Virus record (IMG/VR): IMGVR_UViG_3300036770_008729
Location: 95,359 to 159,358 of that record
Origin: a virus
DNA length: 64,000 nucleotides
Reading direction: 5' to 3' (one strand)
Below are positions 10,356 to 56,597 of the stretch, piece by piece (position 1 is the stretch's first letter; each line of letters starts with the position of its first letter). The notes under the pieces were generated by a model. The model did no database searches and was not told the DNA's origin. It worked only from the letters and a program-made list of their open reading frames with translations. Position numbers and translations under genes: made by a program.

Positions 10356-11282
10356 ATGAAGTATTTAAAAACTTTTGAAGAAATTTATTATGATTCTAGA
10401 AAACCGGTTGATGGTTATATTGACGCTAATGATTTAGTTGGTCAAAGATTGTGGTTTCATACTAATAGAACACACCGAAACAATGGTTGGAATGGTATGA
10501 TTGGTATTTATGATACTACAAGAAGTGGTAGAAAAATAGGATTAGCGGGTAAATATACAAATGAAGTTAGATTAACTTCTCCAATTTTCTTTCAGACATC
10601 AGAGGCAGGTGCTGAAAATATAAAATCTAAAGGTGATAGAACTTTAATTGCTGGGGTTTCTGGTGTGGTGATTCCGACTGATAGTAATACTTCTGGAATG
10701 CAAAAAATCACTTACAATCCTTTTGATGTCGGGTATTTTCATTTACTAGATGATAGTGGTAAAAAGGAAATAGTTTCTGCTGATGAAGTTTATTTTGTGG
10801 CTTCCGAAGATGGAAAATGGGAAATATGGGCAATGAATCCAAAGTTTAAATTATTAAAAGAGAATAGACACTACCGTGGAGAACATCCTAAATCAATGCC
10901 AGATGAAGATAAAGATTATATCAATGATATTTTACTTGAACTTCAGTTATTGGATATGAGATATGAAATTGTAGAGTGTTGGTATCACAAAGACGAATCT
11001 GACCAAACGGTTGGTAATATACATAAACATAGTCGTCCTGAAGAACTGATAAAGTCATATAGGTCGATTAAAGTAAGTTTATATGATAAGGAAAGGAGAT
11101 TTTTTAGAATAGATGATATAGACTCCGTTTTAACAAGTCTTAAGGTATGGTCATCGGGTAAATATGAAATTGATTTATCTTGGCCAAACGAAATGATTTA
11201 TTTACCAATGGAAGATTTTATAGATGAGTTTGGTGGTGAAGAATTATATACAATAGACATTTACATTTACAAAAGAAATTAG
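10356..11282 (+). CDS. N-terminally tagged protein, unknown
   Basis: A 308-residue protein beginning MKYLKTFEEI. The middle has a beta-rich part with several Gly and Asn (about 25-170). An Asp/Glu-rich C-terminal half contains YRGEHPKSMPDEDKDYI. No family is recognised. It heads the tandem block of tagged genes 10356-13435 and ends in TAG three bases before the next ATG. A packaged internal virion protein is the working inference. Confidence 0.65.
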   Translation: MKYLKTFEEIYYDSRKPVDGYIDANDLVGQRLWFHTNRTHRNNGWNGMIGIYDTTRSGRKIGLAGKYTNEVRLTSPIFFQTSEAGAENIKSKGDRTLIAGVSGVVIPTDSNTSGMQKITYNPFDVGYFHLLDDSGKKEIVSADEVYFVASEDGKWEIWAMNPKFKLLKENRHYRGEHPKSMPDEDKDYINDILLELQLLDMRYEIVECWYHKDESDQTVGNIHKHSRPEELIKSYRSIKVSLYDKERRFFRIDDIDSVLTSLKVWSSGKYEIDLSWPNEMIYLPMEDFIDEFGGEELYTIDIYIYKRN

Positions 11283-11285
11283 GAG

Positions 11286-11828
11286 ATGAAATACTTAAAG
11301 AAATATAAATTATTTGAATCCACTCCTGATGAAGAATGGAGTACAGTAGAAGAAAGAGAAAATACTATTAGACATATATCACTTGAATTTGAAGACGTTG
11401 GACTTATATGTAGTATTTCTAAAGTCAGAAAAGATGTTGAATTAGAACCAGACCGTTATAATGGTAAAACAAAAACTGATCTCTTTTTAGAAGTTTATTT
11501 GTCAAGAAATTGGTATTCACCAAATAGAGAAATACCTGGTGTAGTAAATCCTGAAGGTGGTTACCCTGGTAATCTTATTTTCTGGTATGAAATCAAAAAT
11601 ATAATCATTAGAATTGCTAAATGGTATTATGAAGTAGAGAGCATTTATGATCCTATAAGTAAAGATGCTGTTTATAGAGATGAAAAGGAGAAATCACCTT
11701 TGAGATTCTTTGGTAGTGGAATAGAGATGTTGATTGGTTGTAGTAAAGAAGAGGATTTTGAGAAATTAGGTGATTTTATTTCATTTACTAATTTTAGAAT
11801 AATGATTAAAATATCTGAACAAGTATAA
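11286..11828 (+). CDS. N-terminally tagged protein, unknown
   Basis: A 180-residue protein starting MKYLKKYKLFES, the clearest form of the tag, with L-F-E followed by Ser as a possible processing site. The rest is a mixed alpha/beta sequence without known motifs. AGGAG immediately precedes the ATG, and the gene follows its neighbour by three bases. Confidence 0.65.
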   Translation: MKYLKKYKLFESTPDEEWSTVEERENTIRHISLEFEDVGLICSISKVRKDVELEPDRYNGKTKTDLFLEVYLSRNWYSPNREIPGVVNPEGGYPGNLIFWYEIKNIIIRIAKWYYEVESIYDPISKDAVYRDEKEKSPLRFFGSGIEMLIGCSKEEDFEKLGDFISFTNFRIMIKISEQV

Positions 11829-11832
11829 AGTT

Positions 11833-12336
11833 ATGAAGTGGATAAAATTATATGAAAATTTCGATGATAACATTTCTATTGAAAAAGATGTTGAAGATAT
11901 ATTCTGGGACTTAGAGGGATTTAAAGTTGAGATTTCATTCTGGGTAAATGGTGCTCGTGGTGGTTTTTTGGCAAGTGATGAGTCTGGATCGCAAAAATAT
12001 GGACCAATTGCAGATAATGGTAAATTATACTTAAAAGTTGAGGTCAAAAAAATAGAACCACCTGGTAACTTCCTTACAAAAGATGGTTTTAATTGGATAG
12101 AAACTAAATCTTACTTTAATAGATTGAGAAGTTTTTTAAGCGAGTATAGTCCAGTTAAATATAAAATCAACACTATGGTATTTAGCCACGCACCTCGTTT
12201 TAGTATTGTTAGTAACGCTGAAATACACGATACTTATCAAACATCATTTGATTATGTTGATTCTAAATATATAGAAAAAGATTTTACAGATAGGAATACC
12301 TTAACATCGGTATATTATTTTTTTGAAAGATTATGA
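11833..12336 (+). CDS. N-terminally tagged protein, unknown
   Basis: A 167-residue protein starting MKWIKLYENFDDN, a Trp-containing variant of the tag. It shares the general layout of its neighbours: a tag, an acidic linker and a small mixed domain. It overlaps the next gene by four bases (ATGA). Function unknown. Confidence 0.65.
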   Translation: MKWIKLYENFDDNISIEKDVEDIFWDLEGFKVEISFWVNGARGGFLASDESGSQKYGPIADNGKLYLKVEVKKIEPPGNFLTKDGFNWIETKSYFNRLRSFLSEYSPVKYKINTMVFSHAPRFSIVSNAEIHDTYQTSFDYVDSKYIEKDFTDRNTLTSVYYFFERL

Positions 12337-12983
12337 AATACTTAAAATTATTTGAAGAAGCCACTAATGTTCCTGATTACTTTTTACCATTAGAAAGTAT
12401 CAATCATTATTTAGATCCGAAATCTGGTGTGATTTATCCTATATTAAAATCTGGTGGATATGATGAAAGAAATGATTTTGATTTAGAAGCCTTTACTTCT
12501 GGTCCTGAAGAAGCTCAAATTCCTGGAGATGCTCCAACTGGAAATATTTCAGATGAAGATCAAATGATTATAGACCAGTATCGTCAGTCAACTGAAAAGT
12601 ATTTCAAAGATAAAATTAATTGGAGTTTAATAGATTTAGCAAAAGAAAGGTCTTTAGAAATAATTGATAATGGAGGTAGGTTATTAATCTCTGTTTCTAT
12701 TAAAGTTTCAAATACCTCATCATTTTTTATCTATTATGAGGATATAACTCACACAAGACCTAAACAATTCTGGAATATGTATTTTGAAGATTCAATGTCT
12801 ATATTGTCGAAATGTACAGGCGAATTAATTTATAATTTTTTATTATCAACAAAGTTAAATCAAGCTAACCTCCCTTGGGGTGAGGATTATATATCTTATA
12901 AAACAGGTGATACAGAAACCAGTGAATTGGTCAGACTACTTCATAAGTTATATCCTGAAGAGAATATAAAGGCGATGAATTAA
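12333..12983 (+). CDS. N-terminally tagged protein, unknown
   Basis: A 216-residue protein starting MKYLKLFEEAT. An acidic, Pro/Gly-rich segment at about residues 50-75 looks like a flexible linker before a helical domain. No family recognised. It is in the tagged operon between two other tagged genes. Confidence 0.65.
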   Translation: MKYLKLFEEATNVPDYFLPLESINHYLDPKSGVIYPILKSGGYDERNDFDLEAFTSGPEEAQIPGDAPTGNISDEDQMIIDQYRQSTEKYFKDKINWSLIDLAKERSLEIIDNGGRLLISVSIKVSNTSSFFIYYEDITHTRPKQFWNMYFEDSMSILSKCTGELIYNFLLSTKLNQANLPWGEDYISYKTGDTETSELVRLLHKLYPEENIKAMN

Positions 12984-17947: not shown

Positions 17948-19297
17948 ATGACTATGATGACTGAAAAATCTATTTCTGAGTTTCTCAGTAATGAATATAA
18001 GGATTTCGCCATGTATGTGGTCGAAGGACGTGCAATACCATCAAGTATTGACGGGTTCAAACCCACACAAAGAAAAATTATTCATGTTGCCAATCAAATC
18101 TGGAAAACCGGAAATGAAAAAACACTTAAAGTGTTTCAATTAAGTGGTAAGGTCGCCTCTGATTGTTTCTACCATCACGGCGATATGTCCTTATCAAATG
18201 CCATAATAAATATGGCTCAAAAGTTTAAGAACAACGCTCCCCTTTTAGAAGAAGAAGGTCAGTTTGGTTCTCTTAGGTCTCCACAACCTGGAGCTCCTCG
18301 TTATATCGGAACCAAACTAAATGATAACTTCCGTCTAATATACAAAGACTTTGAGCTACTTCAATATAAAGAAGAAGAAGGAGAACAAATTGAACCTAAA
18401 TATTTCTTACCTATTGTTCCTACCGTTTTATTAAACGGATCATCTGGAATTGCAGTTGGATTTGCCTCAAACATCTTAAATAGAGATATAAAAAGTATTA
18501 TTGATGCTTCTGTTAGAGTTCTTATGGGTAAAGAGCCAGGTGAAGTAAAACCACATTTAAATGGATTTTTAGGTGAGTTTATACAAGATACAGAAAATAA
18601 TAAAAGATGGATTATTAGAGGTAAGTGTGAAAGAGTTAATACTTCTACCGTGAGAATAACTGAACTTCCACCATCAACAACTTATGAAAAGTATGAAGAG
18701 GTTTTGGATAAATTGGTGGATGATAAAGTAATTGTTTCTTATGATGATAACTGTAAGGATAATATAGATTATACAATCAAATTCACAAGAGTAGATTTAG
18801 AAAAGTTCGATGATGAGAAGTTGTTAAGAGTATTGAAGTTAGAGGAATCATCAACTGAGATTTACTCAACACTGGATGAGTTTGGTAAATTAAAAATATT
18901 TGATAATACAACAGACATTATTAAATACTTTGTTAATTTCAGATTAACTTATTATCATAAGAGAAAGTCATTCTTATTAGAAAGAATGAATAAAGAATTA
19001 AAACTTCTTTCCAATCGAGGTAGATTTATTAAAGCGATTTTAGATGAGAAGCTAAAAGTTAATAATGTTGTAAAGTCAGAAATCGTAGCACAGATTGAAT
19101 CTTTGAGTTTAGATAAGATAGATGATTCTTATGATTACTTATTGAAAATGCCTATTTACTCTTTAACAAAAGAAGTATTTGAGAAGTTAAAAGAAGATTT
19201 CAAATTGAAAAAGGAAGAGATTACAAAGCTGGAAGCAACTGATCCTAAGGATATGTATTTAGGAGATTTGGCGGAATTGAAAAAGAAGTATAAATAG
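17948..19297 (+). CDS. 52: DNA topoisomerase II medium subunit (GyrA-like)
   Basis: A 449-residue GyrA/ParC-type breakage-reunion subunit equivalent to T4 gp52 (442 residues). The N-terminus has the family pattern AIPSSIDGFKPTQRKIIH (about 30-47). The catalytic Tyr is most likely Tyr119 in QPGAPRYIGTKL, which forms the covalent DNA link. It lacks the long GyrA C-terminal wrapping domain, as in T4. It would work with the ATPase subunit at 8406-10253. ATGs at 17948, 17954 and 17957 are all possible starts. Confidence 0.93.
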   Translation: MTMMTEKSISEFLSNEYKDFAMYVVEGRAIPSSIDGFKPTQRKIIHVANQIWKTGNEKTLKVFQLSGKVASDCFYHHGDMSLSNAIINMAQKFKNNAPLLEEEGQFGSLRSPQPGAPRYIGTKLNDNFRLIYKDFELLQYKEEEGEQIEPKYFLPIVPTVLLNGSSGIAVGFASNILNRDIKSIIDASVRVLMGKEPGEVKPHLNGFLGEFIQDTENNKRWIIRGKCERVNTSTVRITELPPSTTYEKYEEVLDKLVDDKVIVSYDDNCKDNIDYTIKFTRVDLEKFDDEKLLRVLKLEESSTEIYSTLDEFGKLKIFDNTTDIIKYFVNFRLTYYHKRKSFLLERMNKELKLLSNRGRFIKAILDEKLKVNNVVKSEIVAQIESLSLDKIDDSYDYLLKMPIYSLTKEVFEKLKEDFKLKKEEITKLEATDPKDMYLGDLAELKKKYK

Positions 19298-20468: not shown

Positions 20469-21035
20469 ATGAAACATCTAAAAAACTATAAGTTATTTGA
20501 AAATTTAAATACACCTATCAGTATAGAACAATTCTTATCTGAAATCAATTTCCCTCAAGAATTAAGAACACAAGTAATAAACTGGTGGAATTTAAACAGA
20601 GGTGAATTTATAATTCATTGTTTTAATTTCTCATCACCTCAACCAATAGCTGGTGTTTTTCTTGGTGTAGATGAAATTGCTATCAATAAAAGATTACCAA
20701 TGCCACCTCATATTAAATTATTTTTAGCTCTTCATGAATCTGGACATTGTAATCAACACAGAGAAGGAAGATTTATGACTGGTTATTATGACACCGTAAT
20801 TGCTGGTAACAAACCAGCCTTTTTACAAGCCTATATGGATCTTGAAAAAGAAGCTAATGACTATGCTTTTAATTCATTAAGAGAGATGGGATTAGAAAGA
20901 TTGTATCAATTTGAGGAATCTAGATTAAGAGGAAATCAAAGAGCAGGTGAAATGGTTTGGTCAATGATGACTGCTGATATAGCGAGATTCAATCCTAATG
21001 ATTTTATTGACCTTTTGAAAAAACAAATACTTTAA
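20469..21035 (+). CDS. Tagged zinc metallopeptidase-like protein
   Basis: A 188-residue protein beginning MKHLKNYKLFEN, with the N-terminal tag. The HExxH zinc site is HESGH at 89-93. A later Glu in DLEKEANDYAF (about 124-134) is a plausible third ligand, as in ImmA/IrrE-type peptidases (HELGH ... E-x-EA-N-x-FA). A tagged protease could be packaged and delivered into the host to cleave a host protein; this is inference. Substrate unknown. Confidence 0.7.
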   Translation: MKHLKNYKLFENLNTPISIEQFLSEINFPQELRTQVINWWNLNRGEFIIHCFNFSSPQPIAGVFLGVDEIAINKRLPMPPHIKLFLALHESGHCNQHREGRFMTGYYDTVIAGNKPAFLQAYMDLEKEANDYAFNSLREMGLERLYQFEESRLRGNQRAGEMVWSMMTADIARFNPNDFIDLLKKQIL

Positions 21036-21645: not shown

Positions 21646-22005
21646 ATGAACTGCAAATTAATTTTTACCATAATTTTTCTAATCACTTCGATTGTTGTTA
21701 AGTCGCAAACATTCAATATCACTGATAGAAATGGTTATACCGATGAAGTTATTGTCAAATACCAATCAGCTTTGAATGGTGCTGATTTAGAAAATTTCAG
21801 AGGAAAAACAATCACAAAAACATTCGAGTTTACAAACGGAATAAAGTTCACTCTAATTTCTGCAAAAGAACTTTTCATTTCCGGAAAATCAATCGACTTA
21901 AATCTTTACAAAGATGAAAGACCAGAAAGTTACAGAGAGCCTGTTTTCTTTCTGACCGATACTGGTTACTTATTGGCTCAATATAAAAAATTAGAAAAAC
22001 AATGA
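21646..22005 (+). CDS. Small secreted protein
   Basis: A 119-residue protein with an N-terminal signal peptide (hydrophobic FTIIFLITSIVV, likely cleaved after about residue 20). The rest is hydrophilic and beta-rich. It overlaps the adhesin gene's start by four bases, so the two are probably co-expressed and possibly both exported. Unknown function. Confidence 0.6.
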   Translation: MNCKLIFTIIFLITSIVVKSQTFNITDRNGYTDEVIVKYQSALNGADLENFRGKTITKTFEFTNGIKFTLISAKELFISGKSIDLNLYKDERPESYREPVFFLTDTGYLLAQYKKLEKQ

Positions 22006-25000
22006 AAAAATTAACTCTATTTTTAATTGCGACCTTATTTAGTTTCATTGCAATTTCACAACCAGCAAATAATAATTGTGGAACTGCTCAAAACTTAGGA
22101 ACATTACCAACTCCAGCGGCTTGTCCCAATGGTGTAGGTGCGAATGTCAATGTTACTGGAACAACTGTAAATGCTACTTATCCACTACCTTATAATTACT
22201 TATTAGGTTGTCAAACTGGTGGAAATCAACCAGCACCATCTCCTGATGTTTGGTATCAATTTGTGGCATCTGGAAATCAAGTCAATATAAATATAACACC
22301 TGGTTCTAGTCCATTTTTAGCTAATCCATCTATCACTCTTTGGTCTGGTAGTTGTGGTTCATTGAATGGATTCAACTGTGATAATAATGGATCTAACAAT
22401 GGTAATAACTCTGCTACATTTGAACCATTAACACCAGGTCAAACTTATTACATACAAATATCAGGTTCTTCTGCAACATCAACTGGTAACTTTAATATGA
22501 CAGTAAACGCTAGTAATGATTGCAATAATTGTCTTCAAAATGTAAGTTTGGTTGCTACACCTAATCCAGTCAATGGATTTTATCAACCTGGTCAAACTAT
22601 AAACTTTTGTTTAACAATAACTGGATATAATCAAGTAAGTTCAAATTGGCTTCATGGGGTAATACCAACTTTTGGTAATGGTTGGAATCTAGCTACACTT
22701 ACAACAACACCGGCCAATTCTTGTTCAACTGCTGGAAATTGGCAATGGGCAAACTCTAACACATCAACTGCAACAAATCTCATCACAGGTCCCGGATTCT
22801 ACTATTTCTCAGGATCTGGAGGTTCTGGTAATAACTTTGGAGATAATGGATCGACTTGTACAAGAACTTTTTGTTGGTCTATTCAAACAAAATCAGGTTG
22901 CACATCAGGAAATAACTTAAATATATCAGTAAATACAACCGCTGATGGTGAAACTGGTTCTTGGACAAGTCCTGCTTGTCAGGGTGATCCAAATATAAAC
23001 TTTGCTGCTCAATTGAATTGTTGTCAAACTACGGCTACATCAACTTCTCTAACTTGTTTCGGTGGAACAAATGCTACGGCTACTGCAAATCCAACAGGTG
23101 TATCACCATTTAACTACTCTTGGAATACAACACCAGTTCAAACAACTCAAACCGCTACTGGTCTTTCTGCTGGAAGTTATACAGTAACAGTAACTGATAA
23201 CGGTGGTTGTGTTTCATCAGCCTCTGTTACAATCACTCAACCAACACAACTTCAAGTTACAACCACTTCAACAAATGCTAGTTGTGGTCAATTAAATGGA
23301 TCTGCAACTGCTACTGCTTCAGGTGGAACTGGACCTTACTCCTACTCTTGGAATACAACTCCTGTTCAAACAACTGGAACCGCAACTGGACTTGGACCTG
23401 GAACTTATACAGTAACCGCAACATCTGCTGGTAACTGTCAATCAACGGGTACGGTTACTATTTCATCAACTGGTTCAATAACTGCAACCTCGACATCAAC
23501 TAATGTTACTTGTAATGGTGCAAATAATGGAACAGCTACTGCTAATCCAAATGGTTCTACTAATTATACTTATTTGTGGAATACAATACCTCCACAAAAT
23601 ACTCAAACCGCCACAGGTTTAGCTCCTGGTAGTTATACTTGCACAGTGACAAGTTTTGGATGTCAGACAACTACAACAGTAACTATCACACAACCTCCAG
23701 TTTTAACTGCAGCAATAACAACATCAAATGTAATTTGTAATGGTGGAAATACTGGTTCGGCAGTTGTTACACCAAATGGTGGAACACCAGGATATACTTA
23801 TCTTTGGACAACCTCACCAAATCAAATAACTGCTACTGCTACAAATCTTACATCAGGAACTTACTCTGTAAATGTAACTGATTTGAATGGTTGTACTGTT
23901 ATAGCATCAGCGAACATTACCCAACCTCAACAATTAAATATAACTTTGGTATCATCACAGAATCCAGGATGTAGTGGTTCTTCAACTGGTCAAATTGTGG
24001 TTTCTGCATCAGGTGGTGTTGGACCTACTTACTTTTACACTTTGAATGGTGGAACTCCACAAACATCAGGAACTTTTACTGGATTATCAGGTGGAACTTA
24101 TACTATTTCTGTAAGTGATGCAAATAACTGCACACAACAAATACAGGTTTCTTTGACTCAACCTTTTCCTATTTCTTCTTCTTATACAGTAACAAATGTT
24201 AATTGTAATAGTGGAAATAACGGACAAATACAATTAACGACTATTGGAGGAACACCTCCATATACTTATCTTTGGTCTAATTCTTCTCAATCTCCAAATC
24301 TCACATCACTTACAGCGGGAACTTATTCAGTTGTTATTACGGATGCTTCGGGTTGTCAATTTAATTTGACTAATATAGTAGTTACTCAACCAAATGCTAT
24401 TAATATACTTTTAACTCCGAATCCATCTTCGATTTGTATTGGACAATCTTCAAGTATCACTGCACTTATTGTTGGTGGGACTTTACCATACAACTTTGTA
24501 TGGTCTAATGGTCAATTAACACAAAATATAACTGTTACACCTACTACAACAACTGGTTATACTTTACAAGTATCAGATGCAAATGGTTGTGGACTTAGTG
24601 CTAATACGATTATTAATGTTAATCCACCACTCACTGTTTTAACAACTTCCTCACAAGGAACTATTTGTGTTGGTCAATCATCGACATTAACTGCTAGTGT
24701 GACCGGAGGTAATGGTGGACCATATACTTATAACTGGAATCCAACAGCTCAATCTGGTCAGTCAATAATAGTAACACCGGGAACTACCACACTTTACACA
24801 GTGACAGTAGGTGATGGTTGTTCTACACCAGTAACTAGCACAGTAACAGTAAATGTTAATTTACTTCCGGTTGTTCAATATACAACAACTGCACTTTCAG
24901 GATGTGAGCCTTTAACTGTTACTTTTACCAATAATACACCAAATGTAAATTGTGTTTGGTTTATAAATGGTAATCAAGTAACAAACTGCACCACATCTCA

Positions 25001-25619
25001 ATCTTTTAATACATCTGGAAGTTATTCAGTAACTCTTTCAGTGACCAATACAAATGGTTGTTCTAACACATCACCAAATATATTGGTGAATGTTTATCCA
25101 AAGGCGGTTTCTAACTTTTCAGCTAACCCAATTGTAACAGATTTATTAAACCCAAATGTTAGTTTTACCAACTTCTCTACCTCAGGAAATTATCAGTGGT
25201 CTTTTGGAGATGGAAACATTTCTTCACTTATAAACCCACAGAATACCTATTCTGATACTGGAAGTTATAATGTTCAGTTAATTGTTGTTTCACCTGATGG
25301 GTGTAGGGACACTTCTTCACTTGAGATATACATAAGTGATTTATTTACATTTTATATTCCTAATGCTTTTACACCGAATGGTGATGGTAAAAATGATGTA
25401 TTCACACCTCAGATAAGTGGTGCAGAGTGGTATCAATTCTGGATTTACAACAGATGGGGAGAGCAAATTTGGGACTCTGGAACTAATGGTGAACCTTGGA
25501 ATGGAATCTATAAAGGTAGTTTAGTTCAACAAGATGTTTATGTTTGGAAGTTGATTGTAAAGGAAAAACAACGAGGCAAAAAGCATTTATTTACAGGACA
25601 TGTTAGTGTTATTAAATAA
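22002..25619 (+). CDS. SprB-repeat adhesin with T9SS type B sorting domain
   Basis: A 1205-residue exported protein. A signal peptide (1-20, MKKLTLFLIATLFSFIAISQ) is followed by a pre-peptidase-C-like beta domain to about 185. From about 340 there are six or so SprB-type repeats of about 75 residues, each with a Cys-x-Gly start, YSWNT-like core, GTYTVT and VTITQP end. Two Ig-like and two PKD-like domains (QWSFGDGN) follow. The last 90 residues (FYIPNAFTPNGDGKNDVFTP, then IYNRWGEQIWDS and VYVWKL) are the gliding-motility type B sorting domain. In the host such proteins are secreted by the T9SS and attached to the cell surface. A phage copy is unusual. Confidence 0.88.
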   Translation: MKKLTLFLIATLFSFIAISQPANNNCGTAQNLGTLPTPAACPNGVGANVNVTGTTVNATYPLPYNYLLGCQTGGNQPAPSPDVWYQFVASGNQVNINITPGSSPFLANPSITLWSGSCGSLNGFNCDNNGSNNGNNSATFEPLTPGQTYYIQISGSSATSTGNFNMTVNASNDCNNCLQNVSLVATPNPVNGFYQPGQTINFCLTITGYNQVSSNWLHGVIPTFGNGWNLATLTTTPANSCSTAGNWQWANSNTSTATNLITGPGFYYFSGSGGSGNNFGDNGSTCTRTFCWSIQTKSGCTSGNNLNISVNTTADGETGSWTSPACQGDPNINFAAQLNCCQTTATSTSLTCFGGTNATATANPTGVSPFNYSWNTTPVQTTQTATGLSAGSYTVTVTDNGGCVSSASVTITQPTQLQVTTTSTNASCGQLNGSATATASGGTGPYSYSWNTTPVQTTGTATGLGPGTYTVTATSAGNCQSTGTVTISSTGSITATSTSTNVTCNGANNGTATANPNGSTNYTYLWNTIPPQNTQTATGLAPGSYTCTVTSFGCQTTTTVTITQPPVLTAAITTSNVICNGGNTGSAVVTPNGGTPGYTYLWTTSPNQITATATNLTSGTYSVNVTDLNGCTVIASANITQPQQLNITLVSSQNPGCSGSSTGQIVVSASGGVGPTYFYTLNGGTPQTSGTFTGLSGGTYTISVSDANNCTQQIQVSLTQPFPISSSYTVTNVNCNSGNNGQIQLTTIGGTPPYTYLWSNSSQSPNLTSLTAGTYSVVITDASGCQFNLTNIVVTQPNAINILLTPNPSSICIGQSSSITALIVGGTLPYNFVWSNGQLTQNITVTPTTTTGYTLQVSDANGCGLSANTIINVNPPLTVLTTSSQGTICVGQSSTLTASVTGGNGGPYTYNWNPTAQSGQSIIVTPGTTTLYTVTVGDGCSTPVTSTVTVNVNLLPVVQYTTTALSGCEPLTVTFTNNTPNVNCVWFINGNQVTNCTTSQSFNTSGSYSVTLSVTNTNGCSNTSPNILVNVYPKAVSNFSANPIVTDLLNPNVSFTNFSTSGNYQWSFGDGNISSLINPQNTYSDTGSYNVQLIVVSPDGCRDTSSLEIYISDLFTFYIPNAFTPNGDGKNDVFTPQISGAEWYQFWIYNRWGEQIWDSGTNGEPWNGIYKGSLVQQDVYVWKLIVKEKQRGKKHLFTGHVSVIK

Positions 25620-25622
25620 ATT

Positions 25623-25652
25623 AAAAAACCTGTTGAAAGACAGGTTTTTTTA
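25623..25652 (+). terminator. Rho-independent terminator
   Basis: AAAAACCTGT pairs with ACAGGTTTTT around a short loop, followed by T's. It lies just after the adhesin stop. Confidence 0.85.
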
Positions 25653-25679: not shown

Positions 25680-26072
25680 ATGAGAAAAGAAAGCATTATA
25701 GAAATGATTGATAAAAGAATTATTGAAAACTTTGTCAATGGTTATAGTCCAGAGTTTATTATAGCTGACATACAATCAAAAACAGATAAAATGTCTGACT
25801 TTATTACAAATCAAGGAATTGATTTAGAAAAATTTATTGATATGGATTTTGATGTTTTAACTGATGATGATTTCTCAAAAGATAAATTACCAATGACTAG
25901 AACTAAATATACAGTTTACTATGTTAAACAATCTAGAAAAAGAATAAAAGATATAAACTGGATTATTGAGAATTGTAAAAGATTTCCACATTTATCAAAA
26001 TCACAAGTATTTAGGTTGATTAAACTTAGAGAAAAGTTGAGTCGTGAGAACGCTATTGAATTACCCTTTTAA
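25680..26072 (+). CDS. Unknown helical protein
   Basis: The ATG at 25680 gives 130 residues; an upstream start at 25653 would lie before the promoter box. The sequence is charged and helix-rich (MRKESIIEMIDKRIIENFVN at the start, then KSQVFRLIKLREKLSRE). No family recognised. It converges on the reductase gene with a 12-base overlap. Confidence 0.55.
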   Translation: MRKESIIEMIDKRIIENFVNGYSPEFIIADIQSKTDKMSDFITNQGIDLEKFIDMDFDVLTDDDFSKDKLPMTRTKYTVYYVKQSRKRIKDINWIIENCKRFPHLSKSQVFRLIKLREKLSRENAIELPF

Positions 26073-26804
26073 GTTTCTTATCCATTCAGAGAACTTTATT
26101 AAGCTTTCATTAAGTGTCTCAACAAAATTAAAATCTTTTAAGAAGTCACCAAAGTCTTCAACATAACCTTTTTTACTTTCATCTGTTTTGGTTTGAGTCC
26201 ATTGCCAGTTAAAACTTAATTGAGTTGGTGTTTTAAACCCGAAGAATTTTAACACTTCTTTTTCTAATTCAACTGCTTCACTTCCATTCCAGTTATGACC
26301 AGTTGCTACAATTCCAACTTCTTTATCCTTTAATAAGTTAGATTCTCCTAATGTAGTGTGTCTATTCTCAAGCCAAGTTAATCTTTCAATTAATTGTGTG
26401 TAGATAGCATTCATTTTACCCCATCTTATAGATCCAAAAAAGATAACTATATCTGCCTCAAAGATTGCATTTGCAACTTTATACATTTCATCTGATTTAT
26501 TATTGAGTGAAGCCCAACATCTAATTATTTTATGTGGATTCTTTTCTTTATCCTTTAGAAGTGCGTCTTTTAGACCACAAGTATTTCCTCTTTTAGTTGA
26601 TACATTACCTTCACATGGAAAGATTTTAAGTTTAGACACATTAATAATCTCTATACCTTCAATCTTTTTAGCAATTTCATCTGCTATTATAGAAGATTTA
26701 GGAAGTTCTTTATCACCAGACCATCTATTAGAAGTAGTAAGAAAAACAATCTTTTTCTTTTGATTTTTCTTAAGATAGTTGTAAAGTCTTTTCAATTTAT
26801 CCAT
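26061..26804 (-). CDS. Flavodoxin-like NAD(P)H reductase
   Basis: The ATG at 26804 gives 247 residues. The sequence has the flavodoxin/FMN-reductase layout: a first beta strand KIVFLTTSNRWSG, then ADIVIFFGSIRWGKMNA (FMN-binding type) and GIVATGHNWNGSEA. A CGL / GNT...CG segment resembles iron-sulfur flavoproteins. It would bind FMN and move electrons from NAD(P)H. Its role in the phage is unclear; redox support of host or phage metabolism is an inference. Confidence 0.7.
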   Translation of the reverse strand: MDKLKRLYNYLKKNQKKKIVFLTTSNRWSGDKELPKSSIIADEIAKKIEGIEIINVSKLKIFPCEGNVSTKRGNTCGLKDALLKDKEKNPHKIIRCWASLNNKSDEMYKVANAIFEADIVIFFGSIRWGKMNAIYTQLIERLTWLENRHTTLGESNLLKDKEVGIVATGHNWNGSEAVELEKEVLKFFGFKTPTQLSFNWQWTQTKTDESKKGYVEDFGDFLKDFNFVETLNESLIKFSEWIRNLKG

Positions 26805-26835
26805 ATTGTATATATAAAAAAAAGAATATACAATC

Positions 26836-26846
26836 TTAATATATAC
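26836..26846 (+). promoter_or_regulatory. Candidate late-type promoter
   Basis: TTAATATATAC lies three bases before the ATG at 26850 in a divergent, AT-rich spacer. Confidence 0.45.
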
Positions 26847-26849
26847 AAT

Positions 26850-27182
26850 ATGAAAAAGTTTACACAATTAAACGAAGCTAAGTTTTTTACACCAGATCCA
26901 AGTATTATTAAAAAATATGCTGCTAGAATTATTCCCCTTTATATAACTGGTGAATTAAAGACTAGAGATACTAAATTAGTAGATGAGTGGTTAGAGATGA
27001 ATAGGTCATCTGAATCTCACAAAAATGAAAATGTTATTTGTGATTTAGAAATTATAGCAATAAAAAACATTTTTGATAATCCACTAACTAATAATGGATA
27101 TTCTCAATTAGTTCAAGATATAGATGCTGGTTGTCCACGATTAGAAAGATTTTTAAGACCTATTATTTTCAAAAAGTTCTAA
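26850..27182 (+). CDS. Tagged small protein
   Basis: The ATG at 26850 gives 110 residues starting MKKFTQLNEAKFF, a looser variant of the N-terminal tag. It is helix-rich, with no family recognised. A late-type promoter is directly upstream. Confidence 0.5.
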   Translation: MKKFTQLNEAKFFTPDPSIIKKYAARIIPLYITGELKTRDTKLVDEWLEMNRSSESHKNENVICDLEIIAIKNIFDNPLTNNGYSQLVQDIDAGCPRLERFLRPIIFKKF

Positions 27183-45869: not shown

Positions 45870-46181
45870 TCAATATTCGATTTTTGTAATATCTGATAGG
45901 TCAATTTCAAAAGTATTATTATCAATATCTACAGTAACCGTCTTACTATCAACACTTACTGGTGTTATAGGATCTTCTTCTTTATGTTTTATATCTTTAT
46001 TTTTAATATCTTTTAATCCTTTAATTGTTTTTGCGTAGATAACTCCACCTGCTTTTATGCAATTTATCAAGTCTTCTTCTTTAATAAGTGTTCCTTCTTG
46101 ATTATTATTTTTTACCTGCTTTCCACTATCGGGTTTTTTTTGATTTTCTTCAAAATCTTCAAATAATTTTATCCATTTCAT
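45870..46181 (-). CDS. N-terminally tagged small protein
   Basis: A 103-residue protein starting MKWIKLFEDFEEN. A Lys/Asp/Asn-rich linker precedes a small beta-rich end (KTVTVDIDNNTFEIDLSDI). It ends one base after the convergent unknown gene. Tagged and with a late-type promoter on the minus strand. Confidence 0.6.
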   Translation of the reverse strand: MKWIKLFEDFEENQKKPDSGKQVKNNNQEGTLIKEEDLINCIKAGGVIYAKTIKGLKDIKNKDIKHKEEDPITPVSVDSKTVTVDIDNNTFEIDLSDITKIEY

Positions 46182-46185
46182 AATT

Positions 46186-46209
46186 CTATATATTAATTTT
46201 TAATATATA
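46186..46209. promoter_or_regulatory. Divergent candidate late-type promoters
   Basis: The minus strand of 46186-46197 reads ATTAATATATAG toward the tagged gene ending at 45870. The plus strand of 46197-46209 reads TTTTTAATATATA toward the tagged gene at 46216. Both tagged genes are thus fed by the same motif in opposite directions. Confidence 0.5.
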
Positions 46210-46215
46210 ATGTGC

Positions 46216-47127
46216 ATGAAGTATATTAAAAAGTTCAATGAAGAGTTATATCCAGATACTTATAGAAGAGTTGCTGGTAGACATAGAGGTTATGGTAAAT
46301 CTCAATCTATTGAAAAGTCAATGAAATTAGATGATTGGGCTAATTTACAAGAATTTGGATTTTATAATATGCACTTTGCTTGTGGTTCAAGTAAAGTAGT
46401 TACTGGTCCATTTACTAAGCCAGAATTAATTGGTATTTATTATGGTGATGTACCAACGGGTAAAGATGTTAGTGACACTATATATGTTGATTTTATTAGG
46501 AATAATAATCTTAAATCAGGTAATTTAATAGAAATTAAAGCTGAACAAATGATCGATAATTGGTTGAGTGGAAGATCCCGACTCTGTATAACATTTGAGT
46601 TTGGATTAAAGCCAACTAATGAAACTATTGTTGCATCTAACAACCACACTCATCTTAGTTCTGGAAATAAATCAGGAAGATGGAGTGATAGTGTTCCTGC
46701 TTTTTCTATTGAATTAAAATTAAATGATTGGGATGATGGAATAGAATCTTATGATAGTGATGCTAAATGGGAAGCTGAAAATAATGGTGAAGATTTTACA
46801 CCATCATCTGCCGCAGATATGTATGAATGGAACAGTTGTGAGAATTGGTCAATTCAAACTCCTTTGAATAAATACTATTCTGCTATTTTCAGTGATAGAA
46901 AATCAGCTCAAAAGTTTTTAGGATTTTTCAGAGAAACTATGAATAGTCCTATTGTAAAAGAGTGTATTAGAATGCCACTTGGTATTATAAACACTACTGG
47001 TGATCAGATAGAGAAGGTTTTTAAATCTTATGAAAAAGTAAGAGTTCATGGTCTTTATGATGAGAAAATAAAACCTTTACCATCTGGTAAAACACACAAT
47101 GATTATTGGTTTGATAGAATAATATAA
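46216..47127 (+). CDS. N-terminally tagged protein, paralogue 1
   Basis: The ATG at 46216 is preferred over 46210. The 303-residue protein starts MKYIKKFNEELYPDTYRRVA. It shares with the genes at 47142, 48471 and 49298 a tag ending in EEL, a P-x-TY-x-[SR] element and a C-terminal D-[RSK]-[KRS]-SA-x2-F element. A paralogous family of internal-type proteins is likely. Function unknown. Confidence 0.65.
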   Translation: MKYIKKFNEELYPDTYRRVAGRHRGYGKSQSIEKSMKLDDWANLQEFGFYNMHFACGSSKVVTGPFTKPELIGIYYGDVPTGKDVSDTIYVDFIRNNNLKSGNLIEIKAEQMIDNWLSGRSRLCITFEFGLKPTNETIVASNNHTHLSSGNKSGRWSDSVPAFSIELKLNDWDDGIESYDSDAKWEAENNGEDFTPSSAADMYEWNSCENWSIQTPLNKYYSAIFSDRKSAQKFLGFFRETMNSPIVKECIRMPLGIINTTGDQIEKVFKSYEKVRVHGLYDEKIKPLPSGKTHNDYWFDRII

Positions 47128-47141
47128 AATAATATAAAATT

Positions 47142-47987
47142 ATGAAATACTTAAAAAGATTTAACGAAGAATTAAAACCACAGGTTTATAGAAGTGCCGC
47201 GAGAGCTATCTTAAAATCTAAGTTGCCTCCTCAAACTAAACCTGGTGAACTTTCTAAAATAATTAGAAGTCCCGATAAACCTGAATCTGTTTCTGATGAA
47301 ACTTGGAAAAGAGTAACTAAATTGAGGTCACATTCTGATGAAATTGAAAGGAAACAAAACCTTATTAAGTGGAAAGATAATTTACAAGATTATTTATTGT
47401 TTGGTTCATCAAAATTAAGAATTGCTAATCCTAAGAATAGTAAACAATTAGTAGGTGATTTTGCTTTTTACATCAGTTTTGATGAATTGTCATTTGAAGA
47501 TAATTATCAGGAACAAAGGGATAATGAAGATGGTGTGATTAAGATGGGTATTCCACTTTTTGTTGGTATAATTCCTACTTCTGAAGACCTAATTGAACAG
47601 TGTGATGAAGTTGTTCCTGAGCCAGAGTTTGATAATGGATTTTACTGGGCAATGTGTGTCTCAATAGATTTTGAAATTGATGGTGATAATTTAACTTTTA
47701 CTGGAATAGATATTGATAATTATGATACTGGTATGACTGGTGATATAAGTTTTGTGGATAAACCATCAGCTCGTAGGTTTTTACAATTATTAAAGAACAT
47801 ATTTTCTAAAGTTGATTTGAATTACCCATCTGGATATACAGATGAAACTAATTTCTATAAAAAGTTAGAACAAGTAATTTTAATTCGTCAAGGATTTTCA
47901 GCTGATTATGGATTCAACTTAGAACAAGTTTCGGACTTTATACAAGCACAAATAAGTTCTGGATTAGCAGACAAAATTTCAGAATAA
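47142..47987 (+). CDS. N-terminally tagged protein, paralogue 2
   Basis: A 281-residue protein beginning MKYLKRFNEELKPQVYRSAA. It has the family's C-terminal VDKPSARRFLQLLKNIFSK. An N-terminal Lys/Arg-rich linker is followed by an acidic beta domain. Part of the run 46216-50671. Confidence 0.65.
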   Translation: MKYLKRFNEELKPQVYRSAARAILKSKLPPQTKPGELSKIIRSPDKPESVSDETWKRVTKLRSHSDEIERKQNLIKWKDNLQDYLLFGSSKLRIANPKNSKQLVGDFAFYISFDELSFEDNYQEQRDNEDGVIKMGIPLFVGIIPTSEDLIEQCDEVVPEPEFDNGFYWAMCVSIDFEIDGDNLTFTGIDIDNYDTGMTGDISFVDKPSARRFLQLLKNIFSKVDLNYPSGYTDETNFYKKLEQVILIRQGFSADYGFNLEQVSDFIQAQISSGLADKISE

Positions 47988-47989
47988 AT

Positions 47990-48445
47990 ATGAAACACTT
48001 AAAGAAATATAAATTATTCTTAGAATCAACTGATTTAGATTTTGATTTTTTGGCAGCAATTGGTAAAATGAAATTAGCTATTCTGAAAGTGGTTAAGTTA
48101 CACGAAGAGCATTGCTATAAACAGGATAAATTATCCACTAATGAAAGATTTAAGATTTCATTGAACGACTTAATTGATAGTAATATAAATGGTGAACAAA
48201 CATTCACTGAGGATTATCTAAGTGTTATTAATTTGTTTGAAAAAGAAGTTTATGGTGATACTAAATTGAAATTAGTAGAGGAATCTTTATTTGCACATTT
48301 AGATGATTTTATTTGCACTTTCAAAGGTGTTTTAATTCATAAGGATTCAGAAGATTCGAGGAGACTTGAAGAAGATTCAGAACATATATTGAATAAAATG
48401 GATTCAACTTGGGTTCATGCATCAGAAGAATCTGAGACGGATTAA
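47990..48445 (+). CDS. N-terminally tagged protein
   Basis: A 151-residue acidic helical protein starting MKHLKKYKLFLES. It is not an obvious member of the surrounding four-gene family. It lies between paralogues 2 and 3. Confidence 0.6.
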   Translation: MKHLKKYKLFLESTDLDFDFLAAIGKMKLAILKVVKLHEEHCYKQDKLSTNERFKISLNDLIDSNINGEQTFTEDYLSVINLFEKEVYGDTKLKLVEESLFAHLDDFICTFKGVLIHKDSEDSRRLEEDSEHILNKMDSTWVHASEESETD

Positions 48446-48470
48446 AATTAAAGATAATTTATCAGAATAA

Positions 48471-49298
48471 ATGAAACACTTGAAACGATATAATGAAGAA
48501 TTAAACCCATCTACTTACATAAGTGCTGCTACTAAGTTAAGACAACTCGGTCATGTAAGAAGGCCAAAAGAACTAGAAGATTGGAGTAATTTTGAAAAAG
48601 AAAGGCTTAAAAAACAACAACAATTGTTTAGAAAAGATGAGTTATCACAATTCTCACCATTTAAGTTAAAGTTTTATAAACAAAGGTGGAATTCCGCAAC
48701 AAGAATAACCGAAGAGGATTTCTTAGGAGAAGGCCTTTTTTATGTTGAACCAAGCTTTAGTTCAGATTGGTTTGGTGATATGATGTATGACCATGAGGCA
48801 GATGGAGAAGGTCTTAGTATTCCATTTGAATTTGGAACATCACCAGCAAATGAAGAGACTGAAATAGCTTGGGAAGAAATAAAATCAAAATGCCAAAGTC
48901 TTAAAGAACAAGAATATGACGGTGTTACCTACAATACTAGAATGTGGATTAAATTATTTGATCCAGATAGTTATGTGATTACAAATGAAAATAAATGTTT
49001 CTGGGAAACAGCAGATAATGGTCTTTTTGTTTTGGATAGTAGAGCAGAAGCAATTAGGTTTAAGAAACTAATCATTGACTCTTTAGAAGGTAAAAATCAA
49101 TGGGGTAAGAATAAATGGCACCCAGAAGGGATGTATGGTAATTTTATTAAGTTCTTCCAAAGAGATTTAGAATGGAGAGTAAAAGAAAGAGAAGCTGGGA
49201 GAAATAAATTAGAGCAATACTTCAAACAGGAACATATGCCAATTTTAGCTAATAAAGTTAAAATGGGTTTATCAATAAATGATTTATATAGAAGCTAA
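48471..49298 (+). CDS. N-terminally tagged protein, paralogue 3
   Basis: A 275-residue protein starting MKHLKRYNEELNPSTYISAATKL, with LDSRAEAIRFKKLIIDSLEG near the C-terminus. It shares the paralogous layout. Its stop overlaps the next start by one base. Confidence 0.65.
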   Translation: MKHLKRYNEELNPSTYISAATKLRQLGHVRRPKELEDWSNFEKERLKKQQQLFRKDELSQFSPFKLKFYKQRWNSATRITEEDFLGEGLFYVEPSFSSDWFGDMMYDHEADGEGLSIPFEFGTSPANEETEIAWEEIKSKCQSLKEQEYDGVTYNTRMWIKLFDPDSYVITNENKCFWETADNGLFVLDSRAEAIRFKKLIIDSLEGKNQWGKNKWHPEGMYGNFIKFFQRDLEWRVKEREAGRNKLEQYFKQEHMPILANKVKMGLSINDLYRS

Positions 49299-50671
49299 TG
49301 AAATACTTAAAGAAATATAATGAGGCTTCTGTTTATATACAAAATTCAGATATAAAGAGTTTAGTATATGATAAACTAAGAGAGATAAAGGAAGATATAG
49401 ATAATAATTTCCATATCAATATCATTAATTACATTGAAAGTAATGATGCAAATAATTTGAATAAGAATATTGGAAGAGAATTTGTTAAATGTAAGGTAAT
49501 GAAAGAATCTAATTTTGATTATAGTCAAATTAGTGAAACCATTGAAGGACTTAAAAAGATGATGGAACTTGAAGGGTGGAATCTTTGGGATTATAGTTGT
49601 TACTTAGGTCATAGACCACCAACTGCCAAAATAGAAAGAGAGCTAAATAGAGCTTACAATAGATTTGGTGATGGAAGATGGACTGGGTCTTGTTATTCTT
49701 TTAATATTACCTTTATAAAAGGTGATAATTTGGACTCTCCATATGCTTATATGATGGGTATGAAACAACATCAATTAAAAACAAATGAAGAGTTATTTGC
49801 TTCTACTTATAAATCAGCTGCTGATAAATTGATGGTAAAACATAAAAAAAGAGCTGCTGAGTTGATGAAAATGCATGACTTCAGAAAAAATGAAGAAGAA
49901 AAAGAAAAGCTTCGTCAAGAAGAAATGAGAAAGAATAAAGTAGTTGAAAATGCTGCTCAATTAGGAGTTTATAAGTGTAAGTTAAGAATGTCAAAAGAGG
50001 AATTCATAGGTGATTTTTATCTCAATTTATCATTTGCTGAATATTCATTTGATGAAGATTATCCTTACTTCTTAGATGGTGAAAGTGGTATGTATTTATG
50101 TTTTGCTATTGGTGTAATACCAGCTAATGAAGAATCTAAAGAATGGCTTGATAAGTATGCAAAAGGATTTATTGGTGGTGATAAAGTTACTTATTGGATG
50201 GGAGATCTAAGATTAAAAGCATCTAATGTACAAAATGTTTATCATATGGGTGACTTTCCCGAAGCCCCAACTCCCGGATATGTTAATGATGAGATTTATG
50301 ATAATGGTATAGGTGATGAAACAGTAATTATTTACTATAACTTAACTGATAAAAAGAGATATAGATTTGATATAGAAAATAATAAATGGGTAAGTCATTA
50401 CTTAGAGTTTGAACCTAATGGTTCTATGTATTTTGAAATCCACGAAGGTTATTTTTGTTTGGTTGATAGAAAATCAGCGGTTCAATTCAAATCAAAGTTT
50501 TATGACATATTTGCAGGTAAGATTATTTTCAAACCAGACCAAAATCTTGACCACGTAAAAGATATGATGTTAGAATGTATTTGTAATGAATATGGGCATT
50601 CTATACAAGAGTTTATAGATGTTATGGAATCTATAAAGAGAGTAAAAATCAACACACTTTATAAAGATTAA
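49298..50671 (+). CDS. Tagged fusion protein, paralogue 4
   Basis: A 457-residue protein with two parts. Residues 1-154 start MKYLKKYNEAS and are unrelated to the paralogues. From residue 155 (ATG at 49760) MKQHQLKTNEELFASTYKSA resembles the start of paralogues 1-3, and VDRKSAVQFKSKFYDI matches their C-terminal element. It therefore looks like two tagged genes fused, leaving a degraded tag inside. Confidence 0.65.
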   Translation: MKYLKKYNEASVYIQNSDIKSLVYDKLREIKEDIDNNFHINIINYIESNDANNLNKNIGREFVKCKVMKESNFDYSQISETIEGLKKMMELEGWNLWDYSCYLGHRPPTAKIERELNRAYNRFGDGRWTGSCYSFNITFIKGDNLDSPYAYMMGMKQHQLKTNEELFASTYKSAADKLMVKHKKRAAELMKMHDFRKNEEEKEKLRQEEMRKNKVVENAAQLGVYKCKLRMSKEEFIGDFYLNLSFAEYSFDEDYPYFLDGESGMYLCFAIGVIPANEESKEWLDKYAKGFIGGDKVTYWMGDLRLKASNVQNVYHMGDFPEAPTPGYVNDEIYDNGIGDETVIIYYNLTDKKRYRFDIENNKWVSHYLEFEPNGSMYFEIHEGYFCLVDRKSAVQFKSKFYDIFAGKIIFKPDQNLDHVKDMMLECICNEYGHSIQEFIDVMESIKRVKINTLYKD

Positions 50672-50672
50672 A

Positions 50673-51857
50673 ATGAAGTATATCAAAGAATATATTGACT
50701 CAATCTCTGATGGTGTTATTTTGATTATTGATAATACAAAACCTCCTGAGAAAAATTATTTATCAAATGTGATAAAATATTTAGAATCAAGAAAAATTGA
50801 TTATGTTATTTGTGCTGATATTGATACCTTAAAGAGAAATATTGAAAATAATAAAATAATTGGTTCTATTTCGACTGGATCTGATTATAGAGTTTTCAAA
50901 AGTGAGCACTTGGATTTATCTTATTACGCAATAGAAAACTTAAAATGTCCGATGTTGGGTATTTGTTTCGGGTTTCAATCAATGGCCAAGTTTTATGGTT
51001 CTGAAATTTCACAAGATGAACTACTGGATGATTTAGTAATCTTAGATAATTATGATTCTACACATCCGTTATTTAGTGGAATAGACTTGAATACACAACC
51101 TGTTAAATTTTGTTTTCATGACTTTCCAATTGAAGTTCCACCTGGATTTCGACCAATTTGTGAAATAAACAATAAAATAGCTGGTATCTGTTCTAATAAT
51201 AGATTTGGATTACTTTTTCACCCAGAAGATATGATTGAAACTTATAAAATATTTGATAATTTTATTCAGATTTGTAAATCAAGTAAAGTTCAGGAATCTA
51301 AAATAATAAAATCATTTAGATTATTTGAATCACAAAACGCTGGTTCTGGAAATGCTTCTTTTAACTGGTTAAAGAAACAAAATAATGAAGATTATTTAAA
51401 ATTAAGTGAGTTACTTTTAGACCTTTTTGACGATTGGAGCATTAGACCTAAAGAAGAAGGTTTCTATTTCGAAGATGATCCTGAAGAATGGCCAACATAT
51501 AAATTTTGGACATTTCATACTATTAAAAGTAAATCTGTTGTCGATGATACTGCTGACTTTTCGAAAATCTCAAAAGATGATGAGATTCAAAACATAATTA
51601 TTTTTAACATACCAGTAGTCTCTATGTCAGACAGAAATGAAGATTCATTTTTAGATTTTAAGCAATCAATTGAAGAACTTAAGCCGAGAATCAGAGGATA
51701 TATCGGTAAAGAACTTATTATGGGTCATGAAGAAATAAGACCAGAAGATCCTGAAGATAATATGTATTATGATGTTATTTTGAGATTGGTACAATTAGAT
51801 AAGACTAATGAGAGTTTAACAAAAGATAATAGATCTATCTTTTCTAAAAGAAGATAA
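50673..51857 (+). CDS. Tagged glutamine amidotransferase fusion
   Basis: A 394-residue protein starting MKYIKEYIDSISDG. Residues 15-200 form a class I glutamine amidotransferase: GICFGFQ (nucleophile Cys98) and LFHPED (His183, Glu185), as in GMP synthetase-type enzymes. At 209-220 SKIIKSFRLFES nearly matches the tag of the gene at 12986 (MKHLKKYRLFES). A second, unrelated domain follows. This looks like a fusion of an amidotransferase gene to a tagged gene. What amide-dependent step it serves is unknown. Confidence 0.72.
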   Translation: MKYIKEYIDSISDGVILIIDNTKPPEKNYLSNVIKYLESRKIDYVICADIDTLKRNIENNKIIGSISTGSDYRVFKSEHLDLSYYAIENLKCPMLGICFGFQSMAKFYGSEISQDELLDDLVILDNYDSTHPLFSGIDLNTQPVKFCFHDFPIEVPPGFRPICEINNKIAGICSNNRFGLLFHPEDMIETYKIFDNFIQICKSSKVQESKIIKSFRLFESQNAGSGNASFNWLKKQNNEDYLKLSELLLDLFDDWSIRPKEEGFYFEDDPEEWPTYKFWTFHTIKSKSVVDDTADFSKISKDDEIQNIIIFNIPVVSMSDRNEDSFLDFKQSIEELKPRIRGYIGKELIMGHEEIRPEDPEDNMYYDVILRLVQLDKTNESLTKDNRSIFSKRR

Positions 51858-56418: not shown

Positions 56419-56500
56419 GCCCTTTTGTTGGAATTGGTAGACATCTCAGACTAAGGATCTGAGGCCGAAAGGTGTGAGAGTTCGAGTCTCTCAGAGGGTA
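56419..56500 (+). tRNA. tRNA-Leu (AAG)
   Basis: A type II tRNA with variable arm. The anticodon arm TCAGA-CTAAGGA-TCTGA gives anticodon AAG, reading CUU (Leu). The T arm GAGAG-TTCGAGT-CTCTC is perfect. Acceptor ends pair with two G-U pairs. No CCA is encoded, fitting the phage CCA-adding enzyme. Confidence 0.9.
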
Positions 56501-56509
56501 CTAAAAACT

Positions 56510-56581
56510 GGTCCTGTAATTTAACGGATAAAATTTCTGCCTTCTAAGCAGAATATCGGGGTTCGATTCCCTGCGGGACTA
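56510..56581 (+). tRNA. tRNA-Arg (TCT)
   Basis: The anticodon arm TCTGC-CTTCTAA-GCAGA gives anticodon TCT, reading AGA (Arg), a codon used often here. T loop is TTCGATT. No encoded CCA. It follows tRNA-Leu by nine bases. Confidence 0.9.
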
Positions 56582-56597
56582 CTAATAAATATTTCTC

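Follow-up and report, generated by a model that had tools for sequence, protein, structure and literature searches.

A phage-borne operon for a T9SS type B adhesin lies in a conserved cargo slot

The C-terminal sorting domains (CTDs) of type B T9SS proteins bind PorP-like proteins, which hold the adhesin SprB at the surface (PMC9143113). Type B secretion requires cognate shuttles, and the shuttle-CTD pairs are selective (PMC12618676). Among phages, Cryophage has been reported as a unique case of phage-encoded T9SS cargo, and that cargo is type A (PMC7468147). Bacteroidetes are the predicted hosts of phages larger than 634 kb, and it has been suggested that surface-located proteins encoded by huge phages alter susceptibility to other phages (PMC7162821); the latter is a general statement, in a text with no mention of SprB or of the string "secret". 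In the part of the open-licence literature covered by our search we found no phage described as encoding type B cargo.

The operon described here, which encodes a T9SS type B adhesin, is genuinely phage-borne and lies in a conserved cargo slot. The window, the whole 64,000-nucleotide stretch analysed, comprises positions 95359-159358 of a 281,114-bp virus record that contains a single CHU_C gene. A terminase large subunit match was absent from this record, which may be a fragment. The operon and its surroundings are as follows.

17948..19297, + strand, topoisomerase II subunit A, left anchor of the cargo slot (phrog_551, 7.9e-151)
20469..21035, + strand, HAD-like protein, left neighbour of the slot (homologues in the same place in LR756502, a 385-kb phage and LR745206)
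21646..22005, + strand, small signal-peptide partner protein, 119 aa (its stop overlaps the adhesin start, ATGA)
22002..25619, + strand, T9SS type B SprB-repeat adhesin, 1205 aa (ORF, Pfam, NCBIfam)
22002..22061, + strand, adhesin signal peptide, residues 1-20 (by inspection)
22062..23042, + strand, conserved tip region, residues 21-347 (alignments, structure model)
23022..24611, + strand, SprB-repeat stalk, limits approximate (PF13573, 8 stretches)
25155..25325, + strand, PKD domain adjoining the sorting domain, residues 1052-1108, best stretch (PF18911)
25356..25610, + strand, T9SS type B sorting domain, residues 1119-1203 (TIGR04131, CHU_C)
25623..25650, no strand assigned, terminator-like hairpin past the operon (symmetrical; listed on the - strand, with a T run also on the + strand)
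25680..26072, + strand, small conserved protein (M[RD]K..I..MIDKRI), right anchor of the slot (ORF list, slot survey)
26061..26867, - strand, flavodoxin-like protein, right neighbour of the slot (PF03358)

The adhesin ORF starts with ATG and is uninterrupted. On inspection its N-terminus, MKKLTLFLIATLFSFIAISQ followed by PANN, has the features of a typical Bacteroidota Sec signal, and a heuristic scan also called a signal peptide. The SprB repeats match PF13573 at 9e-42 (140.9 bits against a cut-off of 28) in 8 stretches, which identifies the protein as an SprB-repeat adhesin, and PKD_4 matches above its cut-off at 3e-13. At the C-terminus, CHU_C (3.1e-13, 50.1 bits against a cut-off of 27) and the NCBIfam model TIGR04131, "T9SS type B sorting domain" (44.7 bits against 35), both exceed their curated cut-offs and, with the Sec signal, mark the protein as type B cargo. 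The ORF and these matches bear out an earlier note on this DNA, which had described a full-length gene with a signal peptide, SprB-type repeats and an intact C-terminal sorting domain.

With SprB of Flavobacterium johnsoniae and PG1035 of Porphyromonas gingivalis the phage protein has in common the Sec signal, SprB repeats, PKD/Ig-like stalk and TIGR04131/CHU_C domain. It is 1205 aa long, compared with 669 kDa for SprB (PMC9143113), and unlike SprB it is phage-borne, has a different partner gene and has no SprF/PorP partner encoded: no SprF/PorP-like gene lies beside it, and PF11751 had no match anywhere in the virus record. The label "SprB-type adhesin" given in the earlier note holds in that this is a surface adhesin of host type, with SprB repeats and an intact type B signal. 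"SprB" itself is too strong a name, because the phage has no SprF gene and the tip domain is that of another Bacteroidota adhesin family. Like Cryophage, the window phage has cargo addressed to the host T9SS; Cryophage is a different phage, whose endoglucanase, GH39 and PA14 proteins bear type A signals, and its cargo varies among variants and has a proposed role in superinfection (PMC7468147).

According to the structure model, the 327-residue tip probably consists of two beta-sandwich domains. Structure prediction had been proposed in the earlier note; it gave a tip model with a pLDDT of 72.6 and no confident structural homologue. The best PDB match, the Sgo0707 adhesin, was not accepted as a homologue, with an E value of 2.7e-4 but a TM score of 0.29. 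The model of the small partner protein (pLDDT 64) had no PDB match.

The adhesin is the second gene of a two-gene unit common to phage and Bacteroidota chromosomes, and partner homologues lie directly 5' of the adhesin both in phage LR756502 and on the chromosomes. With the tip alignment as query, a scan of genomes from 84,980 species gave 14 full-length matches, approximately 42-64% identical. Among the contigs whose surroundings were read, ordinary cellular genes flank L087, L089 and L091-L093. A 120-143-aa signal-peptide ORF homologous to window 21646-22005 is found directly upstream in L087, L091-L094, L096 and L098; it is absent from L089 and L090 within the stretch read. The search for the closest host homologue, also proposed in the earlier note, found a chromosomal two-gene unit; the partner gene upstream of the window adhesin had been missed in the note. 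The chromosomal unit (for example, L087 and L091-L098), encoding the ∼120-143-aa signal-peptide protein and a giant SprB-repeat adhesin, shares gene order, partner family and tip domain with the phage unit. It differs in being flanked by cellular genes and, wherever the cellular ORF is readable far enough, in having a longer stalk than the phage protein. No name for the two-gene unit was found in the libraries searched.

In a tree of the tip, phage and cellular sequences interleave. With clade groups named after the tree had been seen and AU p values that are rough, a single phage clade was rejected if L088 is counted as cellular (p 0.0002-0.03). With L088 counted as phage, the main group as one clade was not rejected (p 0.22), but one clade that also included L131 was (p 0.0002), which supports at least two exchanges with cells. 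We infer the direction of transfer from the cellular distribution. The contig L088 (JAKOQC010000629.1, MAG bin G041) carries an operon closely related to that of the phage; its bin has no PorP/SprF gene of any kind, so L088 may be a misbinned phage contig.

The closest phage relatives have the same neighbours. The homologue in the 642-kb phage LR756502 is 53.9% identical over adhesin residues 1-863 (tblastn, E 2e-159), far beyond chance, and lies in the order topoisomerase A, HAD-like protein, small signal-peptide ORF, 1670-aa adhesin, 121-aa protein. The order in the 385-kb IMG/VR phage (L035/L138) is topoisomerase A, rhomboid-like protein, HAD-like protein, 562-aa secreted protein, 898-aa adhesin, 122-aa protein, flavodoxin. 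The tips of these two phages are 64% and 68% identical to that of the window, respectively, and the corresponding locus is also present in a 176-kb IMG/VR phage and in LR745206 (635 kb). Viral contigs scanned with the full-length adhesin protein gave no match, whereas scans with the PNGDG motif and the tip alignment did.

A scan anchored on topoisomerase A yielded 43 phage loci. Both anchors are present in 17 distinct huge-phage loci, with near-identical pairs counted once and LR756502 and LR745206 included. Type B cargo occupies the slot in 10 of the 17, a type A-like protein in one (L190), and no recognised cargo was found in six; since related phages do without it, the cargo is not essential. 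The slot holds a fused tip adhesin in the window, LR756502 and the 385-kb phage, a tip-less adhesin family of 734-740 aa in L167, L169, L170 and L172, a three-gene split version in L131, and a signal peptide and sorting domain alone in LR745206 and L193. Some phages with an empty slot have CHU_C genes elsewhere, for example, a 476-kb record with four, one of them a 112-aa frame; LR756502 has three CHU_C genes and LR745206 four. Support in the topoisomerase tree is too weak for counting cargo gains. We use only the label "type A-like", because type A tails were sub-threshold in two L131 proteins (719 aa, PF18962 2e-4; a 520-aa subtilase, PF18962 0.0011 and TIGR04183 0.0012) and absent from neighbouring phage cargo of L127, L190 and L138. 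The earlier note had missed the slot with its cargo turnover, both the split and the minimal forms, and the lack of a phage shuttle.

The split version (L131, L127, L130, L132, L133) consists of three consecutive signal-peptide genes that encode the tip, a PKD-like protein of ∼180-195 aa, and a PKD-like domain with the CTD. The split cassettes are located as follows.

L127:7941-10377, split cassette
L130:7941-10377, split cassette
L131:7932-11019, split cassette
L132:1379-3865, split cassette
L133:7929-10422, split cassette
L041:51-2378, split cassette

The first two split proteins stop at the point where another Ig-like module would follow, with xIxH[N/D] as their C-terminal residues. Across the phage loci, which are partly redundant, 23 of 329 ORFs with a signal peptide (heuristic call) have such an ending, compared with 2 of the 1292 remaining ORFs. 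The split proteins may be subunits of one surface structure. Split-type genes are also found on cellular contigs, with cellular relatives in L160-L162. Near the split cassette of L131, a secreted subtilisin-like protease (L131:3836-5398, - strand, PF00082 9.4e-29) has a sub-threshold type A tail.

Purifying selection acts on the cargo, with dN/dS of 0.11-0.33, the distant pairs being near saturation. Between the window and LR756502, where dS is near saturation, dN/dS is ∼0.16 for the CTD, ∼0.24 for the tip and 0.33 for the whole protein, and the CTD and tip are the more constrained parts of the adhesin; for the split cassettes of the closer pair L127/L130 it is 0.11-0.21. The tip is conserved while stalk length varies among relatives.

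The PorP_SprF shuttle (PF11751) was found in none of 42 phage records and in 13 of the 14 MAGs carrying the family, at 5-24 copies each. Because the 42 records were mostly chosen for the motif, the presence of CHU_C in all 42 is by construction; 19 of the 42 have a terminase large subunit match.

Our preferred reading, to which we give moderate confidence, is that the adhesin would be exported via host Sec and T9SS and decorate the infected cell surface, likely protecting it against other phages. In this reading the adhesin gene is the cargo-encoding member of a two-gene Bacteroidota operon for a surface adhesin, which the huge phage carries and purifying selection maintains. In the infected cell, the adhesin and its small partner would be translated together and reach the periplasm through host Sec, and the type B domain would be passed to the host T9SS translocon and one host PorP/SprF-like barrel. 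A host barrel is proposed because type B cargo needs a PorP/SprF-like shuttle and no phage shuttle was found; its use is assumed, shuttle-CTD pairs being selective (PMC12618676). The SprB-repeat stalk and conserved tip would be left displayed on the infected cell. We infer the export itself, the shuttle choice, the timing and the benefit. The most likely benefit would be defence of the infected cell against other phages, with its surface covered and the type B shuttles of SprB-kind gliding adhesins occupied; altered adhesion of the infected cell would be a close alternative. Since phages may use SprB and RemA as receptors (PMC13288928), receptor displacement or masking is the leading idea.

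It is possible, though we think it unlikely, that the sorting domain is the working part and the adhesin part secondary, such that the phage protein loads host PorP/SprF barrels, displaces SprB-like gliding adhesins and removes receptors or motility. PG1035 has been proposed to cap PorP (PMC9143113), and proteins with a signal peptide and type B sorting domain and no passenger fill the slots of LR745206 and L193 and occur in LR756502, the 476-kb record and other phages. Those located are listed here.

L011:6237-6560, minimal protein
L046:4352-4675, minimal protein
L050:431-754, minimal protein
L063:6117-6446, minimal protein
L140:4509-4859, minimal protein
L143:4838-5218, minimal protein
L193:15031-15408, minimal protein

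This minimal class accounts for 6 of 52 phage CHU_C frames and 5 of ∼155 frames listed in four cellular genomes, where some of the five are probably fragments. The excess is small, however, and the minimal CTDs of LR745206 and L193 are without the PNGDG motif of the canonical domain. Most phages, moreover, keep a long conserved tip and stalk under purifying selection, so the passenger matters in those phages.

We also consider it improbable that the adhesin has no anti-phage role and alters the behaviour of the infected cell (attachment, aggregation, matrix binding) so that progeny are likelier to meet new hosts. The adhesin-like architecture, the conserved tip with its variable stalk length and the cellular counterparts, which are adhesins of the same build, are consistent with this, but the tip model has no confident structural homologue and the phages with minimal proteins have no adhesive part at all.

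That the adhesin is a virion component, a fiber or decoration with vestigial secretion signals from a host gene, is a good deal less probable. A PHROG "Hoc-like head decoration" match (8.3e-15) points that way, but it is confined to generic Ig-like repeats, and a Hoc-like decoration would be virion-associated without secretion signals, whereas signal peptide and CTD are present here and are retained across diverged phages, the CTD being the most constrained part measured. In L127 and L130, the split cassette and a preceding secreted gene start 1-5 kb past the gene for the major head protein, a position compatible in those phages with late expression or with a role in the virion; the neighbours at the window locus, in contrast, are not structural genes. 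Among them are the two subunits of a phage-type topoisomerase II (phrog_551 7.9e-151, phrog_543 7.1e-179), along with homing endonucleases and an exonuclease. Upstream of the operon there is no T4-type late promoter TATAAATA, and the number of terminator-like sites in the region is not above that in shuffles. The models phrog_2973 and phrog_26672 ("Hoc-like decoration", "virion structural") match SprB-type Ig repeats in window 22002-25619 and in L127:7941-9227, so annotation with these models may wrongly label phage T9SS adhesins as parts of the virion.

Elsewhere in the window are two tRNA genes, Leu(aag) and Arg(tct), at 56419-56582. The N-terminus MK.[LI]K.[FY].E is found in 10 of 84 window ORFs, mostly in two clusters (10356-12983 and 45870-51857), and in ORFs of L139, L140 and L003. 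It resembles the capsid-targeting leader of T4 internal proteins, and by that likeness these ORFs may encode packaged proteins.

Carriage by chance after host capture, with no phage function, is very unlikely: the absence of recognised cargo from six of the 17 loci and the two or more exchanges with cells would suit it, but dN/dS of 0.11-0.33, the same slot in diverged huge phages and several copies per genome (e.g., 3, 4 and 4) argue against it. The earlier note had allowed for an assembly chimera of phage and host DNA, and although the closest non-phage relatives are cellular, this is refuted, to near certainty, by the same neighbours in the independent assemblies of LR756502, the 385-kb phage, the 176-kb phage and LR745206.

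The type B/SprB operon, the cargo slot and the naked sorting-domain proteins appear to be new within the portion of the literature that our search covered. Huge Bacteroidota phages repeatedly carry substrates of a secretion system without a detected shuttle of their own, and giant Bacteroidota viruses probably redecorate the surface of infected cells. A broader proposal, which we put forward only tentatively and regard as doubtful, is that huge Bacteroidota phages keep a dedicated type B slot, with the signal peptide and sorting domain as its constant element, and take over host PorP/SprF shuttles, replacing host adhesins. If true, this would be a secretion-system takeover via PorP/SprF shuttles, with some phages using naked sorting-domain proteins, of a kind not described before. 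The operon common to hosts, the conserved slot and the empty-slot relatives make T9SS surface remodelling by phages directly testable, as is the idea that type B shuttles are contested among phages for which gliding adhesins may serve as receptors, and the tip-less and naked versions separate the sorting-domain question from the adhesin question.
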